Shown here piece by piece: positions 29,712 to 34,328 of a DNA stretch of 64,000 nt; position 1 is the first letter of the stretch; each line of letters starts with the position of its first letter. Source of the stretch: Propioniferax innocua (GTDB taxonomy: Bacteria > Actinomycetota > Actinomycetes > Propionibacteriales > Propionibacteriaceae). Below the pieces are notes generated by a model, which saw only the letters and a program-made list of their open reading frames with translations, was not told where the DNA came from and did not search any database. The position numbers were made by a program, and so were the translations under genes. Location of the stretch: assembly GCF_006716235.1 (NCBI RefSeq), contig NZ_VFOR01000002.1:620001-684000 (forward strand), in the 5' to 3' direction.

Positions 29712-29774
29712 CCAGTGCGCCTCGCGGCAGGGCCAGTGCGCCTCGCGGCAGGGTCAGTGCGCCTCGCGGTAGGC
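29712..29774. repeat. 21-bp tandem repeat (3 copies) spanning the lsr2 stop codon
   Basis: Three 21-bp units (29712, 29733, 29754) follow one another. The last is the real end of lsr2, encoding the final YREAH and TGA. The two downstream copies keep the reading frame and encode CREAH, but with TGG in place of TGA. Read-through of the stop would add a repeated tail. Confidence 0.9.
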
Positions 29775-30089
29775 CTCCAACACGCTCGCCGGGACACGTC
29801 CGCGATCGTTGACCTGCATACCCTGAGCACGCGCCCAAGCACGCACCTCGGCCGGATTGAGACCGGAGGCGGAGGAAGACTTCGCAGCGCGGCGCTTTCC
29901 TCGCGTTCCGGAGGCCGAGGAACGACGGGCATTCTTCAGCCAGGGCTCCATCGCCTCGGTGAATTCCTCGACATGGGCAGCAGAAAGGTCAATCTCGTAC
30001 TCGACGCCCTTCCAGCCGAAATGTACTGTCTGGTCTGCGGAGGAACCGTCGATGTCATCTTCCAGAACAACATGGACTCGCTGAACCAT
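29754..30089 (-). CDS. lsr2: Nucleoid-associated xenogeneic silencer Lsr2
   Basis: A 111-residue H-NS-like protein that bridges AT-rich DNA and silences foreign genes. The N-terminal oligomerisation domain reads RVHVVLEDDIDGSSADQTV and VEYEIDLSAAHVEEF. A basic linker (RGKRRAAKSSSASG) leads to the DNA-binding domain, where the AT-hook-like RGR is in VNDRGRVPASVLEAY and the helix is NPAEVRAWARAQGM. ATG 30089 has AAGGAGC 6 bases upstream. A promoter is visible at 30119-30147. It is divergent from the MidA-type gene. Confidence 0.95.
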   Translation of the reverse strand: MVQRVHVVLEDDIDGSSADQTVHFGWKGVEYEIDLSAAHVEEFTEAMEPWLKNARRSSASGTRGKRRAAKSSSASGLNPAEVRAWARAQGMQVNDRGRVPASVLEAYREAH

Positions 30090-30118
30090 TGCGAGCTCCT
30101 TTCTTGTGGTCGTGCTGC

Positions 30119-30147
30119 ATCTTATGGCGAAAGCAGAGATCCGGCAA
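30119..30147 (-). promoter_or_regulatory. lsr2 promoter
   Basis: On the minus strand, TTGCCG (30142-30147) and TAAGAT (30119-30124) are 17 bp apart, close to SigA-type boxes. The transcript would have a leader of about 25 bases with the AAGGAG site. The stretch is AT-rich compared with its surroundings. Confidence 0.6.
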
Positions 30148-30178
30148 AGAAATAAGCAAATTTCAGAGAGGCCCCGCA

Positions 30179-31144
30179 TTGTCGGAAAATCAGTGGCACA
30201 GGAGGAAGTCGTCCGAAACGTGGCTGGACGCGTGGAGGTCGAGCGACTTCTGGAAGCGGAACCAGCCAGAATCACATTTTCACGGATTGGCCACGGTCGG
30301 CACACTGTTCGCCACCGCAGTCCTGCAACTGGCCCGAGAACGAGGACTGCGCCGGATCATCGACATCGGCGCAGGCCACGGCGCCCTGCTGAACCGACTG
30401 CACACGCTCGATCCCACACTGGATCTGGTCGGCATCGATCAACGCCCTCAGCCCCCCGGATGTCCGGGCACATGGTGGATGAGCCAGTGGTCCACCGATT
30501 CGTGGTCCCCGGGGTTGGAGCCCCTCGCCACCGAGCCCGCCCTGATCGTGGCGCTGGAACTGCTGGACGACATTCCGGCACCGGTGGTGCAACGCGTGGA
30601 CGGCGTGTGGCGACACCAGTGCCCAGACGGCTCGCTCGGCCCGGCCATCCATGATGCGGAGGTGTCCTGGCTCGAACACTGGTGGGACGAGGGCGTCCCA
30701 CATGCCGAGGTCGGGCACGGCAGGGACTCGGCCTGGACCGCCATCGCCCGAGCCGCGTCTCCGGGGAGCACCCTGCTCATGGTCGACTACGGACACATCC
30801 AAGGAGAACGGCGTCCGACATTCACAGCACATCGCGCCGGTCACATGATCGACCCCGCAAGGCTCGAGCCCTCCGACGTGGGATCGGTGAACCTCACCGC
30901 CCATGTGGCGGTCGACGCCGTCGACGCCGCGATGCGCAACGCGGGAGCCGAGCTTCACGCCATGGACCGCGTCCGCAATGTGATCGCACAGGTGGACTCA
31001 CTCGCACCGCACGCTCCATCTGCTCCTGATGCGCTGACAGACTTGGCTCGTCGCGGTGAGCGCCACTTCTACAACGGACCCGCGGGCGACTTCTGGTGGC
31101 TGTGCCACACAATGGGTCCATGCGCAAGACGCACCACCTCCTGA
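30179..31144 (+). CDS. SAM-dependent methyltransferase, MidA/NDUFAF7-like (PF02636 type)
   Basis: A 321-residue class I methyltransferase. The SAM loop is IIDIGAGHGALLNRL with the acidic residue at the end of strand 2 in VGIDQRP. LIVALELLDDIPAPVVQ matches the EFLDALP-like motif of the MidA group. The C-terminus has RRGERHFYNGPAGDFWWL. NDUFAF7/MidA proteins dimethylate an Arg of the complex I 49-kDa subunit. Here the next gene, overlapping by 25 bp, encodes a homologue of that subunit. The best start is TTG 30179 with AGAGAGG upstream, because SENQWHRRKSSETW begins there; the frame is open to 30089. Confidence 0.75.
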   Translation: MSENQWHRRKSSETWLDAWRSSDFWKRNQPESHFHGLATVGTLFATAVLQLARERGLRRIIDIGAGHGALLNRLHTLDPTLDLVGIDQRPQPPGCPGTWWMSQWSTDSWSPGLEPLATEPALIVALELLDDIPAPVVQRVDGVWRHQCPDGSLGPAIHDAEVSWLEHWWDEGVPHAEVGHGRDSAWTAIARAASPGSTLLMVDYGHIQGERRPTFTAHRAGHMIDPARLEPSDVGSVNLTAHVAVDAVDAAMRNAGAELHAMDRVRNVIAQVDSLAPHAPSAPDALTDLARRGERHFYNGPAGDFWWLCHTMGPCARRTTS

Positions 31145-32214
31145 TCGGCTCCCTGGGCGCCGCCGTTCCCGGCGCGCAACGCCTGGACCTGGGTCTCGAC
31201 CATCCGTCACACGCCGGGCTGCTGGAACTGCACCTGACAACCGAGGACGGCGTCGTACGCACTGCGGAGCCACGGATCGGCGCCATGCACCGTGGGGTCG
31301 AAAAACTCTTCGAGGTGCGCGACTACCGACAAATCCTCATGCTCGCCAACCGACACGACTGGCAGGCCCCCTTCTTCGGCGAACTCGCCGCCGCTCGATT
31401 GTTCGAAGAGATGATGGGGCTTCCCGTCCCTCCGCGAGCCGCCGCTCTGCGTGTGCTCCTGGCCGAACATGCGCGCGTCACCAGCCACCTGGGGCAGCTC
31501 TCGTGGCTGGCCCATCGCTGTGGCCACTCACTGCACGAGCACCGCGAGCAGTTGCGCGAGGTGCTTGTGATGTGGACCGGAAATCGCATCCACCCGATGG
31601 TGACACGGCTGGGTGGTCTGGCAGCAGAACCGGACGCTCGGGCGATCCCGGCTCTGGTCGAGGCGCTGGAAGCAGCCGCAGAGGCCACGTCCCGGCTCGC
31701 CATCGGTGCTGAATGCGAAGGGGTGGCGCCCGTGCCCGAGGGCGCGGTCGACGCGTGGGGCCTGTCCGGCCCGCTGGCTCGTTCCGCAGGTGTGGCGAGC
31801 GATCTCCGACGTGACGACCCCGACTACGCCGACGTGCTGGACCTCCTCGAAATCCACGCCAGCACCGGGGACGCCGCAGCCCGCTTCGCGCAGATGATCG
31901 GCGAGGTGTCCGACAGTGCCCGGATCGTGGCGCGACTGGCTCCTCGCCTCCCCGACGGCCCGGTCAATTCGAAGCTTCCAAAAATCGTGAAGCTTCCCGA
32001 AGGCAGTGGACACCTCATGCTCGAGGGTGCGTTGGGGCGGATGGGGTTCCGTGTCGTCTCACGTGGCCAGAAGACGCCATGGCGGATGAAGCTGCGCACA
32101 CCATCGTTCCAGCACGTCGCCGCACTGGAAGTGCTATTGCCTGGGACCCGAGCCGAGGATGTCGAGACAGCACTGGCCTCGGTGGGCTGGGTCGTCGGCG
32201 ACTTGGATAAATGA
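31120..32214 (+). CDS. Stand-alone NuoD-like protein (complex I 49-kDa subunit paralogue)
   Basis: A 364-residue homologue of NuoD/Nqo4/NDUFS2 without any other complex I gene nearby. The N-terminal hairpin reads LDHPSHAGLLELHL, followed by AMHRGVEKLFEVRDY and LANRHDWQAPF. The C-terminus has RMKLRTPSFQHVAALEVLL and GWVVGDLDK, like the NuoD ending. Aligned without gaps, the quinone-binding His (HPSTHG) is Ala32 and the quinone-binding Tyr (RxDY) is Trp81, whereas the Arg of LHRG, methylated in mammals, is kept as Arg58. It is therefore unlikely to reduce quinone. ATG 31120 lies inside the end of the methyltransferase gene. Its function is not established. Confidence 0.8.
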   Translation: MRKTHHLLIGSLGAAVPGAQRLDLGLDHPSHAGLLELHLTTEDGVVRTAEPRIGAMHRGVEKLFEVRDYRQILMLANRHDWQAPFFGELAAARLFEEMMGLPVPPRAAALRVLLAEHARVTSHLGQLSWLAHRCGHSLHEHREQLREVLVMWTGNRIHPMVTRLGGLAAEPDARAIPALVEALEAAAEATSRLAIGAECEGVAPVPEGAVDAWGLSGPLARSAGVASDLRRDDPDYADVLDLLEIHASTGDAAARFAQMIGEVSDSARIVARLAPRLPDGPVNSKLPKIVKLPEGSGHLMLEGALGRMGFRVVSRGQKTPWRMKLRTPSFQHVAALEVLLPGTRAEDVETALASVGWVVGDLDK

Positions 32215-33184: not shown

Positions 33185-33733
33185 TCAGGTCCCAGACGCC
33201 TCATCGGAGAAACCGGACGCCTCATCGGAGAAACCCGAATCATCATCGGTGCCGGACCCGTCGGGTACCCGACACTGCCGCTCGAGCCACAGCCCGGAGA
33301 GCATCGTCACCAACCCGGCAACAGCCGCGACAGCACCACGGATCACCCGGTCACGGGGCCCGGCCGCATGGAGATGCTCCACGAACATCAACGCGAACAC
33401 CGCATACCCAGCGCCGACGATCGCCCCGGCCAAAGCCCCGGTCTTGCCGAGCACCAGGAACGTCACGGCCTGTTCGGGCTCCACCTCAGTGCGGGCGGTG
33501 CGGAAGCGTCGACGAGCCACGATCGCGGTCACCAGCAACACCAACGCGATGAACCACAGAACTCCCGGACCGACCCACGGCAACAACGGATCGGCCTTGG
33601 TGATCAGACGGACCGTGGCCACGATCAGCCACCCCAGCAGCCCACCGGCGAGCCCGGCAACGGCAAGATCCCGACGAGAGGTCAACTGCAGCGGCGTCGC
33701 CTGCCGAGAACCGGGATCCTCCGATCCCTCCAC
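33185..33733 (-). CDS. DUF3180 membrane protein
   Basis: A 182-residue membrane protein of the DUF3180 family, which regularly follows folK in actinobacteria. Four helices are visible (LAVAGLAGGLLGWLIVATVRL, LLPWVGPGVLWFIALVLLVTA, VLGKTGALAGAIVGAGYAVFAL, VIRGAVAAVAGLVTMLSGLWL). The tail is acidic and holds a duplicated heptapeptide (GFSDEAS). GTG 33733 comes one base after the folK stop, so I chose it over upstream starts. Function is unknown, but it is the last gene of the folate operon. Confidence 0.85.
   Translation of the reverse strand: MEGSEDPGSRQATPLQLTSRRDLAVAGLAGGLLGWLIVATVRLITKADPLLPWVGPGVLWFIALVLLVTAIVARRRFRTARTEVEPEQAVTFLVLGKTGALAGAIVGAGYAVFALMFVEHLHAAGPRDRVIRGAVAAVAGLVTMLSGLWLERQCRVPDGSGTDDDSGFSDEASGFSDEASGT
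33195..33236. repeat. 21-bp tandem duplication in the DUF3180 C-terminus
   Basis: Two 21-bp units (33195-33215 and 33216-33236) differ by one base. They encode GFSDEAS twice, ending 3 codons before the stop. Confidence 0.9.
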
Positions 33734-33734
33734 C

Positions 33735-34283
33735 TCACTCGACCTCGAGCGTGAGATCGGTCTTGCGGACGCCACTGGCATCCATGTCCTCCAAGAGCTC
33801 GACGATCCTGCCGTGCCCCGGGATCTCCCCCAACGGGTCGACGGCGGCCCAAGGGACGAGCACGAAGGCACGCTGATGTGCACGCGGGTGCGGCAGCGTC
33901 GGGTCAGTCTCCTGGCGTACGTTGCCAACGACGATGACGTCGACATCCAAGGTCCGCGGGCCGTTGGGCTCCTCACGATTGCGCCCGTACGCTGATTCGA
34001 TCGCATGAGCGCGTTCGATCAGGGTCCGCGGTGGCTGGGTGGTCTCGGCCACCACGACGGCATTGAGGAAGTCCGGATTGTCTTCCGGACCACCGATGGC
34101 TTCGGTCTCGTACACCGGAGAGACATCGACGACGATCACATCGGGGGTGTTGGACAACTCGTCGAGGGCACTTTGGAGATTGTCGAGCCGATCCCCCAGG
34201 TTCGCACCAAGAGCGAACACGACCTTGCGCAGCGGCTTCATGCCGCTCAAGGTGTCGGCGTCGATGGCATAAGGATGCGTCAT
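33735..34283 (-). CDS. folK: 6-hydroxymethyl-7,8-dihydropterin pyrophosphokinase
   Basis: A 182-residue enzyme that transfers pyrophosphate from ATP to hydroxymethyl-dihydropterin. The signature motifs are ALGANLGDRLDNLQSAL and NREEPNGPRTLDVDVIVV, and the substrate loop is PHPRAHQRAFVLVP. ATG 34283 has CAGGAG about 10 bases upstream; an upstream in-frame start seven codons earlier has no site. An N-terminal extension of about 20 residues (THPYAIDADTLSGMKP) precedes the fold. It lies 34 bp after folB and is followed directly by the DUF3180 gene. Confidence 0.95.
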   Translation of the reverse strand: MTHPYAIDADTLSGMKPLRKVVFALGANLGDRLDNLQSALDELSNTPDVIVVDVSPVYETEAIGGPEDNPDFLNAVVVAETTQPPRTLIERAHAIESAYGRNREEPNGPRTLDVDVIVVGNVRQETDPTLPHPRAHQRAFVLVPWAAVDPLGEIPGHGRIVELLEDMDASGVRKTDLTLEVE

Positions 34284-34294
34284 GACTCGGAACT

Positions 34295-34328
34295 CCTGGA
34301 TCACCGAACGGCCTGGATCACCGAACGA
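34295..34328. repeat. 17-bp tandem duplication spanning the folB stop codon
   Basis: Two 17-bp units (34295 and 34312) share CCTGGATCACCGAAC. The folB stop (34318-34320) lies in the second. The other copy sits just before the folK ribosome-binding site. Confidence 0.85.

Follow-up and report, generated by a model that had tools for sequence, protein, structure and literature searches.

The window analysed here, 64,000 nucleotides of Propioniferax innocua DNA, corresponds to C2:620001-684000 of a 2.79-Mb genome and contains two overlapping genes on the forward strand. The first encodes a methyltransferase of the MidA/NDUFAF7 family (PF02636; positions 30179-31144, with the TTG start that the first-pass annotation had proposed, an upstream TTG at 30089 being open too), and the second, with an ATG start, a 364-residue paralogue of the complex I subunit NuoD, here called NuoD2 (31120-32214). 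The ends of the reading frames confirm the 25 bp overlap (31120-31144) described in that annotation, and its two family assignments are upheld by Pfam, with 41.6 bits for PF02636 on the methyltransferase against a curated cut-off of 23.3, and 125.4 bits for PF00346 on NuoD2 against a cut-off of 24. A 20-row profile of the methyltransferase also matches solved structures of an NDUFAF7 homologue and of COG1565/DUF185, namely 5ztz_A (E=5.4e-15) and 4f3n_A (E=4.2e-27). MidA is present as a single copy in the genome, and the closest relatives of NuoD2 among named contigs come mostly from Propionibacteriaceae. The reverse strand around the pair carries a divergent Lsr2-type ORF (29754-30305; PF11774, PF23359), whose true start is probably inside the ORF, and folK (33735-34304; PF01288), which belongs to a folate gene cluster by which the locus can be recognised. 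A DUF3180 membrane protein (window positions 33185-34006) adjoins folK and is kept at the same locus in relatives.

Residues 21-123 of NuoD2 align without gaps with Nqo4 of Thermus (2fug_4, phmmer), and in this alignment Ala32, Arg58 and Trp81 correspond to Nqo4 residues 38, 64 and 87. His38 and Tyr87 are the quinone-binding residues of Nqo4. Ala32 (forward-strand codon 31213-31215) occupies the site of the His, Trp81 (31360-31362, forward) that of the Tyr, and Arg58 (31291-31293, forward) the site of NDUFS2 Arg85 and Nqo4 Thr64. The ungapped spacing, the retained Arg and the two replacements had been noted at first pass, and all of them agree with the alignment to 2fug_4; both quinone-site residues are absent from this NuoD2. 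The neighbouring His31 is unlikely to replace the lost His and makes a poor stand-in, since close relatives have HPTRAG or HPSGAG.

The AlphaFold2 model of NuoD2 has a mean pLDDT of 85.7 and a pTM of 0.89. It superimposes on mycobacterial NuoD (8e9g_D) with a Z score of 37.7 and an rmsd of 2.3 over 338 aligned positions, and the structural matches listed for it belong to D subunits of complex I or to the NDH equivalents of these. The loops carrying Arg58 (57-61) and Trp81 (77-81) fall below a pLDDT of 50, which would fit loops that become ordered on contact with a partner. The first-pass annotation had placed the pair outside respiration, as a regulatory or hydrogenase-like scaffold. NuoD2 does show weak similarity to hydrogenase large subunits; yet the protein (P0001) contains two single cysteines and no CxxC pair, and so lacks what marks the large subunit of a [NiFe] hydrogenase.

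The pair had also been described as an orphan with no other complex I gene present. For the window this agrees with searches for NuoB, NuoD and NuoH, whose other matches all fall outside it, but it is not correct for the genome. The canonical NuoD lies at C2:789132-789998, close to matches for NuoB and NuoH, the remainder of the canonical operon being judged from ORF order alone. On contig C1, genes for NuoB2 (PF01058), NuoC2 (PF00329) and NuoI2 stand side by side (C1:1225046-1225444, 1225455-1226051, 1226048-1226371), and after them on the same strand come a KorA-like (C1:1226523-1228373) and a KorB-like gene (C1:1228377-1229483). The NuoI2 of this genome contains two CxxCxxCxxxCP motifs. A profile search recovered one NuoH and no NuoH2 in the genome, which thus holds a second B, C, I and D and falls short of the full set of an 11-subunit complex I without NuoEFG. 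The terms orphan and split off from respiration are not supported by this result: the pair is part of a second enzyme of the complex I type, whose other genes lie elsewhere. NuoD2 has subunits of complex I and Fe-S proteins as its partners, and an independent regulator or hydrogenase-like scaffold, dropped once NuoB2, NuoC2 and NuoI2 had been found in the same genome, is in our judgement very improbable.

The distribution of these genes was surveyed in 296 genomes of the class, with NuoD2 called at 138 bits or more (canonical NuoD scores up to about 100), MidA at 42 bits or more, and NuoI2 at 96 bits or more, cleanly separated from canonical NuoI, which does not exceed 69. NuoD2 occurs in 116 genomes, MidA in 112 and both in 104; NuoI2 occurs in 119, of which 114 have NuoD2 too. 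The association of the pair therefore extends well beyond the window: in 97 of the 104 genomes both genes lie on one contig, never more than 10.9 kb apart and 43 times within 500 bp, with 76 pairs on the same strand, 16 convergent and 5 divergent. One genus of family f20 (L022, L025, L029, L030, L038) has midA upstream of nuoD2 and codirectional, or convergent to it, so that linkage is kept while orientation flips. The genes found between MidA and NuoD2 in other sampled families (ABC-2 transporter, PH-domain proteins, EamA, histidine kinase) vary by locus and gave no lead. Fisher values for the co-occurrence of NuoD2 with MidA and with NuoI2 ignore kinship and are not taken as proof. Presence of NuoD2 and NuoI2 varies jointly inside families f2 (1 genome with, 23 without), f18 (11 with, 16 without), f21, f34, f39 and f40.

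MidA alone was called in eight genomes (G004, G014, G023, G069, G076, G078, G108, G166), its matches being partial in G004, G014, G078 and G166, and NuoD2 without MidA in 12; Pfam's own PF02636 model found no match in any of ten genomes, six of them NuoD2-only and four without NuoD2. NuoI2 without NuoD2 (G004, G014, G023, G042, G108) and NuoD2 without NuoI2 (G070, G190) are confined to fragmented assemblies, 72-94% complete; G190 is the only genome of f19 with NuoD2 and MidA, and its NuoI2 was not found. NuoH2 occurs in 71 genomes, all with NuoI2 and MidA and 69 with NuoD2. The other 48 NuoI2 genomes, here called reduced, have no NuoH2 match and come from many families, some of them possibly reflecting assembly gaps (G016 begins near a contig end); 45 have NuoD2 and 35 have MidA.

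At the target site, Arg (in the motif HR) is present in 31/31 NuoD2 sequences of the class, against Thr (HTG) in 21/21 canonical NuoD sequences, namely that of P. innocua and 20 others, of which ten come from NuoD2 genomes and the other ten from genomes without detected NuoD2. Of the two D subunits, therefore, only NuoD2 offers an Arg, and its conservation bears out what had been noted at first pass. In mitochondria, according to the available sections of PMC3829151, NDUFAF7 dimethylates NDUFS2 Arg85, a step needed for assembly; the Arg modification is reported to be shared by Paracoccus and missing from E. coli, Thermus having Thr (PMC3750175, likewise in part). MidA tracks the Arg-bearing NuoD2, not the Thr-bearing canonical NuoD, and is present in every NuoH2 genome. 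Together with the NDUFAF7 precedent, this suggests that MidA matures NuoD2, which we regard as likely. The earlier proposal of NuoD2 as the partner of MidA and of Arg58 as its target thus gains support from the co-occurrence and from the Arg/Thr contrast, from which we infer the methylation itself.

Another reading is that MidA acts on a different protein and merely travels with nuoD2. A MidA match was not found in 13/48 reduced genomes, and the NuoD2 of five of them (G263, G137, G203, G116, G083) retains HR. This implies, as do six outgroup genomes described below, that Arg58 has a role apart from MidA or that another enzyme acts on it, and it counts against a strict coupling of Arg58 to MidA. 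A different role for MidA has also been proposed in Wolbachia, in the sections available of PMC12455994. Against a separate target, the linkage of the 97 pairs has outlasted rearrangement, and the NDUFAF7 family supplies a precedent; we consider it unlikely, and maturation of NuoD2 by MidA remains our preferred reading.

The claim of a lost quinone site has fared less evenly. The residues are indeed replaced in P. innocua, but the change from Tyr to Trp runs through the whole family (31/31 NuoD2 sequences of the class and 16/20 outgroup sequences), and 14 of the 16 Trp-bearing outgroup genes sit inside operons with membrane subunits. As Trp is present in these operons too, it is no sign of a split from respiration. 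Loss of the His is only partial: it is kept in 17/31 NuoD2 sequences of the class.

These outgroups, sister lineages of the class, come from a search of 119 phylum genomes, part of which belong to the class, for NuoD2-like matches above the canonical level; such matches occur outside the class too. All 20 outgroup loci of NuoD2 type have HR, and 16 have DW at the Tyr site. At 14 of the DW loci a second operon with matches from A2 to N2 carries D2 between its C2 and H2 genes; at the other two (L124, L133) D2 is near MidA, with no other nuo2 match in the stretch. The remaining four loci (L126-L129) have DY and are the most distant. At L120, L121, L122 and L130 midA stands directly behind nuoN2. 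PF02636 is present in 11/20 outgroup genomes; at E 0.001 it gave no match in six DW/HR genomes with NuoD2 in operons (G304, G374, G318, G321, G303, G384), and it is absent from three DY-type genomes as well. Other nuoL/M/N-like genes, probably of the canonical operon, are often found next to the second complex I operon at loci outside the class (L114-L121).

Within the class, 25 NuoD2 genomes were searched for NuoB, NuoH and NuoD. More than one NuoB-family match was found in 23 and a second NuoH type (about 330-350 bits) in 12. Full-type loci have the content A2-B2-C2-H2-I2-J2-L2-M2-N2 and no D, E, F or G. In a survey of these nine subunits, all nine were recovered in L096, L097, L098, L099 and L103, and also in L101, where A2 stands away from the rest; fewer were recovered in L100 and L102. 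B2, C2 and I2 alone stand side by side at eight loci (L088-L095, that of P. innocua included) and at five more (L137-L141), other nuo-like matches in some of these stretches scoring like the canonical operon. An extra NuoB/NuoH/NuoD-like set on G203:C94 (NuoH match 137 bits, NuoD match 48 bits) is perhaps a membrane-bound hydrogenase. Genomes lacking nuoA-N had been suggested as a place to look for the pair; in one genome rated 100% complete (G128; L099, L058) the canonical NuoD was indeed not found, but a second operon with membrane subunits is present there beside NuoD2 and MidA, and Nuo2 may be the sole complex I of this organism.

Two further genomes bear on how the membrane subunits were lost. 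The family of G161 has full-type members, yet on the single contig of this genome (L134) KorAB, NuoB2 and NuoC2 are followed by NuoI2 4.2 kb on, with no A2, H2 or J2-N2 match in 19 kb, which appears to be a recent loss. In G030 (L104/L136) only two short fragments of NuoH2, in different frames, are left, and J2-N2 matches are missing behind NuoI2, possibly an independent loss of the membrane arm. These two genomes speak for more than one loss of the arm.

On the NuoD tree, the NuoD2 sequences of the class form one group (support 100/100). Nested within it is a 23-row clade (99/99) without any full-type genome, comprising 12 of the 13 reduced genomes sampled, G190 and ten named contigs, the whole genomes of which lay outside the membrane-subunit search; the reduced G030 falls outside this clade. 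On the B2-C2-I2 tree, 8/8 reduced loci share one clade (93/95). Long branches and skewed composition could pull the reduced types together on such trees. The grouping on two trees and the spread over 48 genomes of many families suggest that the reduced state is old. Taken together, these comparisons suggest that D2 and midA were displaced together once, that the clade of P. innocua lost the membrane arm once, long ago, and that at least two further losses occurred.

The reduced set of P. innocua might instead be a decaying, non-functional remnant of Nuo2. Both quinone-site residues are replaced, NuoH2 was not found in this genome, MidA is missing among the matches of those 13 reduced genomes, and the broken NuoH2 of G030 suggests that loss is ongoing in places. 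Decay is, however, hard to square with the cluster ligands of NuoB2 (CC, C and C), kept in 8/8 reduced loci read, with both NuoI2 motifs, kept in 10/10 aligned sequences of which 7 are reduced, or with the age of a state shared by so many families. We consider a mere remnant quite improbable and favour a retained enzyme.

The electron donor of this enzyme is suggested by its neighbours. KorA, counted at E up to 1e-100, is present in 105/119 genomes with NuoI2 and missing in 14, against 123/177 without NuoI2. Among the 82 NuoI2 genomes with a KorA position among the matches listed, KorA lies within 13 kb of NuoI2 in 68 (67 on the opposite strand, P. innocua on the same strand), further away in 2 and on another contig in 12. 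The link of KorAB with NuoI2 is frequent and not obligatory. In Streptomyces coelicolor, SCO4594-4595 are annotated as an alpha-ketoglutarate ferredoxin oxidoreductase/dehydrogenase and sco4606-4607 are named NuoL2/NuoM2 (PMC8981147 and PMC3765725), which fits KorAB beside nuo2. On balance we lean towards ferredoxin, reduced via KorAB, as the donor of Nuo2.

We propose, with good confidence, that NuoD2 serves as the D (49-kDa) subunit in Nuo2, a second complex I-type enzyme without the NADH module, that MidA is its dedicated arginine methyltransferase, and that in the clade of P. innocua the enzyme has been reduced to a soluble core. MidA would modify Arg58 beside the iron-sulphur cluster of NuoB2 and so allow D2 and B2 to assemble. 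The ancestral state would be a single operon, A2-B2-C2-D2-H2-I2-J2-L2-M2-N2, with midA behind it in some lineages. In the forerunner of the class D2 and midA would have moved apart from this operon, in P. innocua to a clpC-lsr2-folate locus; the clade of P. innocua would then have lost the membrane subunits, leaving a B2-C2-D2-I2 core, and at least two other lineages would have lost theirs later. The computed basis of this explanation is homology, co-occurrence, gene order, conserved Fe-S ligands, the target residue and tree grouping; to it we add, by inference, Arg58 methylation, the assembly role and KorAB-reduced ferredoxin as donor.

Our guess for the acceptor is a soluble partner, or else the canonical membrane arm, on which the core would dock. 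In the docking version, the B2-C2-D2-I2 core would replace the hydrophilic arm of canonical complex I and drive it with ferredoxin. Further NuoD matches, probably canonical, are present in 46/48 reduced genomes, the other two being 78% and 70% complete, but nearly all members of the class have canonical complex I, so that this would be expected anyway. In addition, 5/7 of the reduced NuoI2 sequences in the alignment lack the N-terminal stretch of the three full-type ones (start codons being the analyst's choice), and the quinone-site residues are replaced. We therefore rate docking as rather unlikely. More tentatively than for the enzyme itself, and at somewhat less than an even chance, we suggest that in many actinobacteria a soluble NuoB2-C2-D2-I2 complex, matured by MidA methylation, would draw electrons from ferredoxin, itself reduced through the oxidation of 2-oxoacids, and hand them to a non-quinone acceptor in the pocket where Tyr has become Trp.

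Two results are new: MidA follows NuoD2 rather than the canonical NuoD, and B2-C2-D2-I2 has been kept without NuoH2 in an old clade including P. innocua and in at least two other lineages. In the open-licence literature, covered mostly by titles and the starts of abstracts, we found no publication on MidA with actinobacterial NuoD2, on the Arg/Thr contrast or on the membrane-free form. A Tn5 screen for coaggregation in Actinomyces oris lists a 'Ni/Fe-hydrogenase III large subunit' (ana_2659) alongside nuo genes (PMC5478893, Table 1); ana_2659 could be NuoD2. The system offers a bacterial test bed for Arg methylation in complex I, since an Arg-bearing and a Thr-bearing D subunit occur in one cell and MidA follows the former. 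A relative of complex I that has seemingly long kept its Fe-S core without a membrane arm also raises the question of that core's own role. As a caution, a residue change beside a gene pair does not amount to loss of function until the rest of the complex has been sought in the genome.

The nuo2 genes of Streptomyces (nuoA2, B2, D2, H2-N2) are probably the same orthologues as Nuo2 here, and the position of nuoD2 apart from the nuo2 operon is already published for that genus (PMC3765725, PMC8388888); in the available sections of these reports, nuoC2, MidA, the Arg/Thr contrast and a membrane-free form are unnamed. The pairing of a MidA-family enzyme with the HRG Arg near cluster N2 parallels mitochondrial NDUFAF7-NDUFS2 and Paracoccus Nqo4, where symmetric dimethylation has been shown (PMC3750175, as far as available); here the target of the modification would be a paralogue, not the D subunit of the main complex I. 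A likeness in architecture is seen with the Desulfitobacterium complex I (available sections of PMC11238625), which, like Nuo2, has no NuoEFG and for which ferredoxin is proposed as donor. D is part of the operon there, whereas here it is displaced together with MidA, and Nuo2 differs further in the Trp at the site of the quinone Tyr, in its frequent korAB-like neighbour and in the loss of NuoH2 in some lineages.
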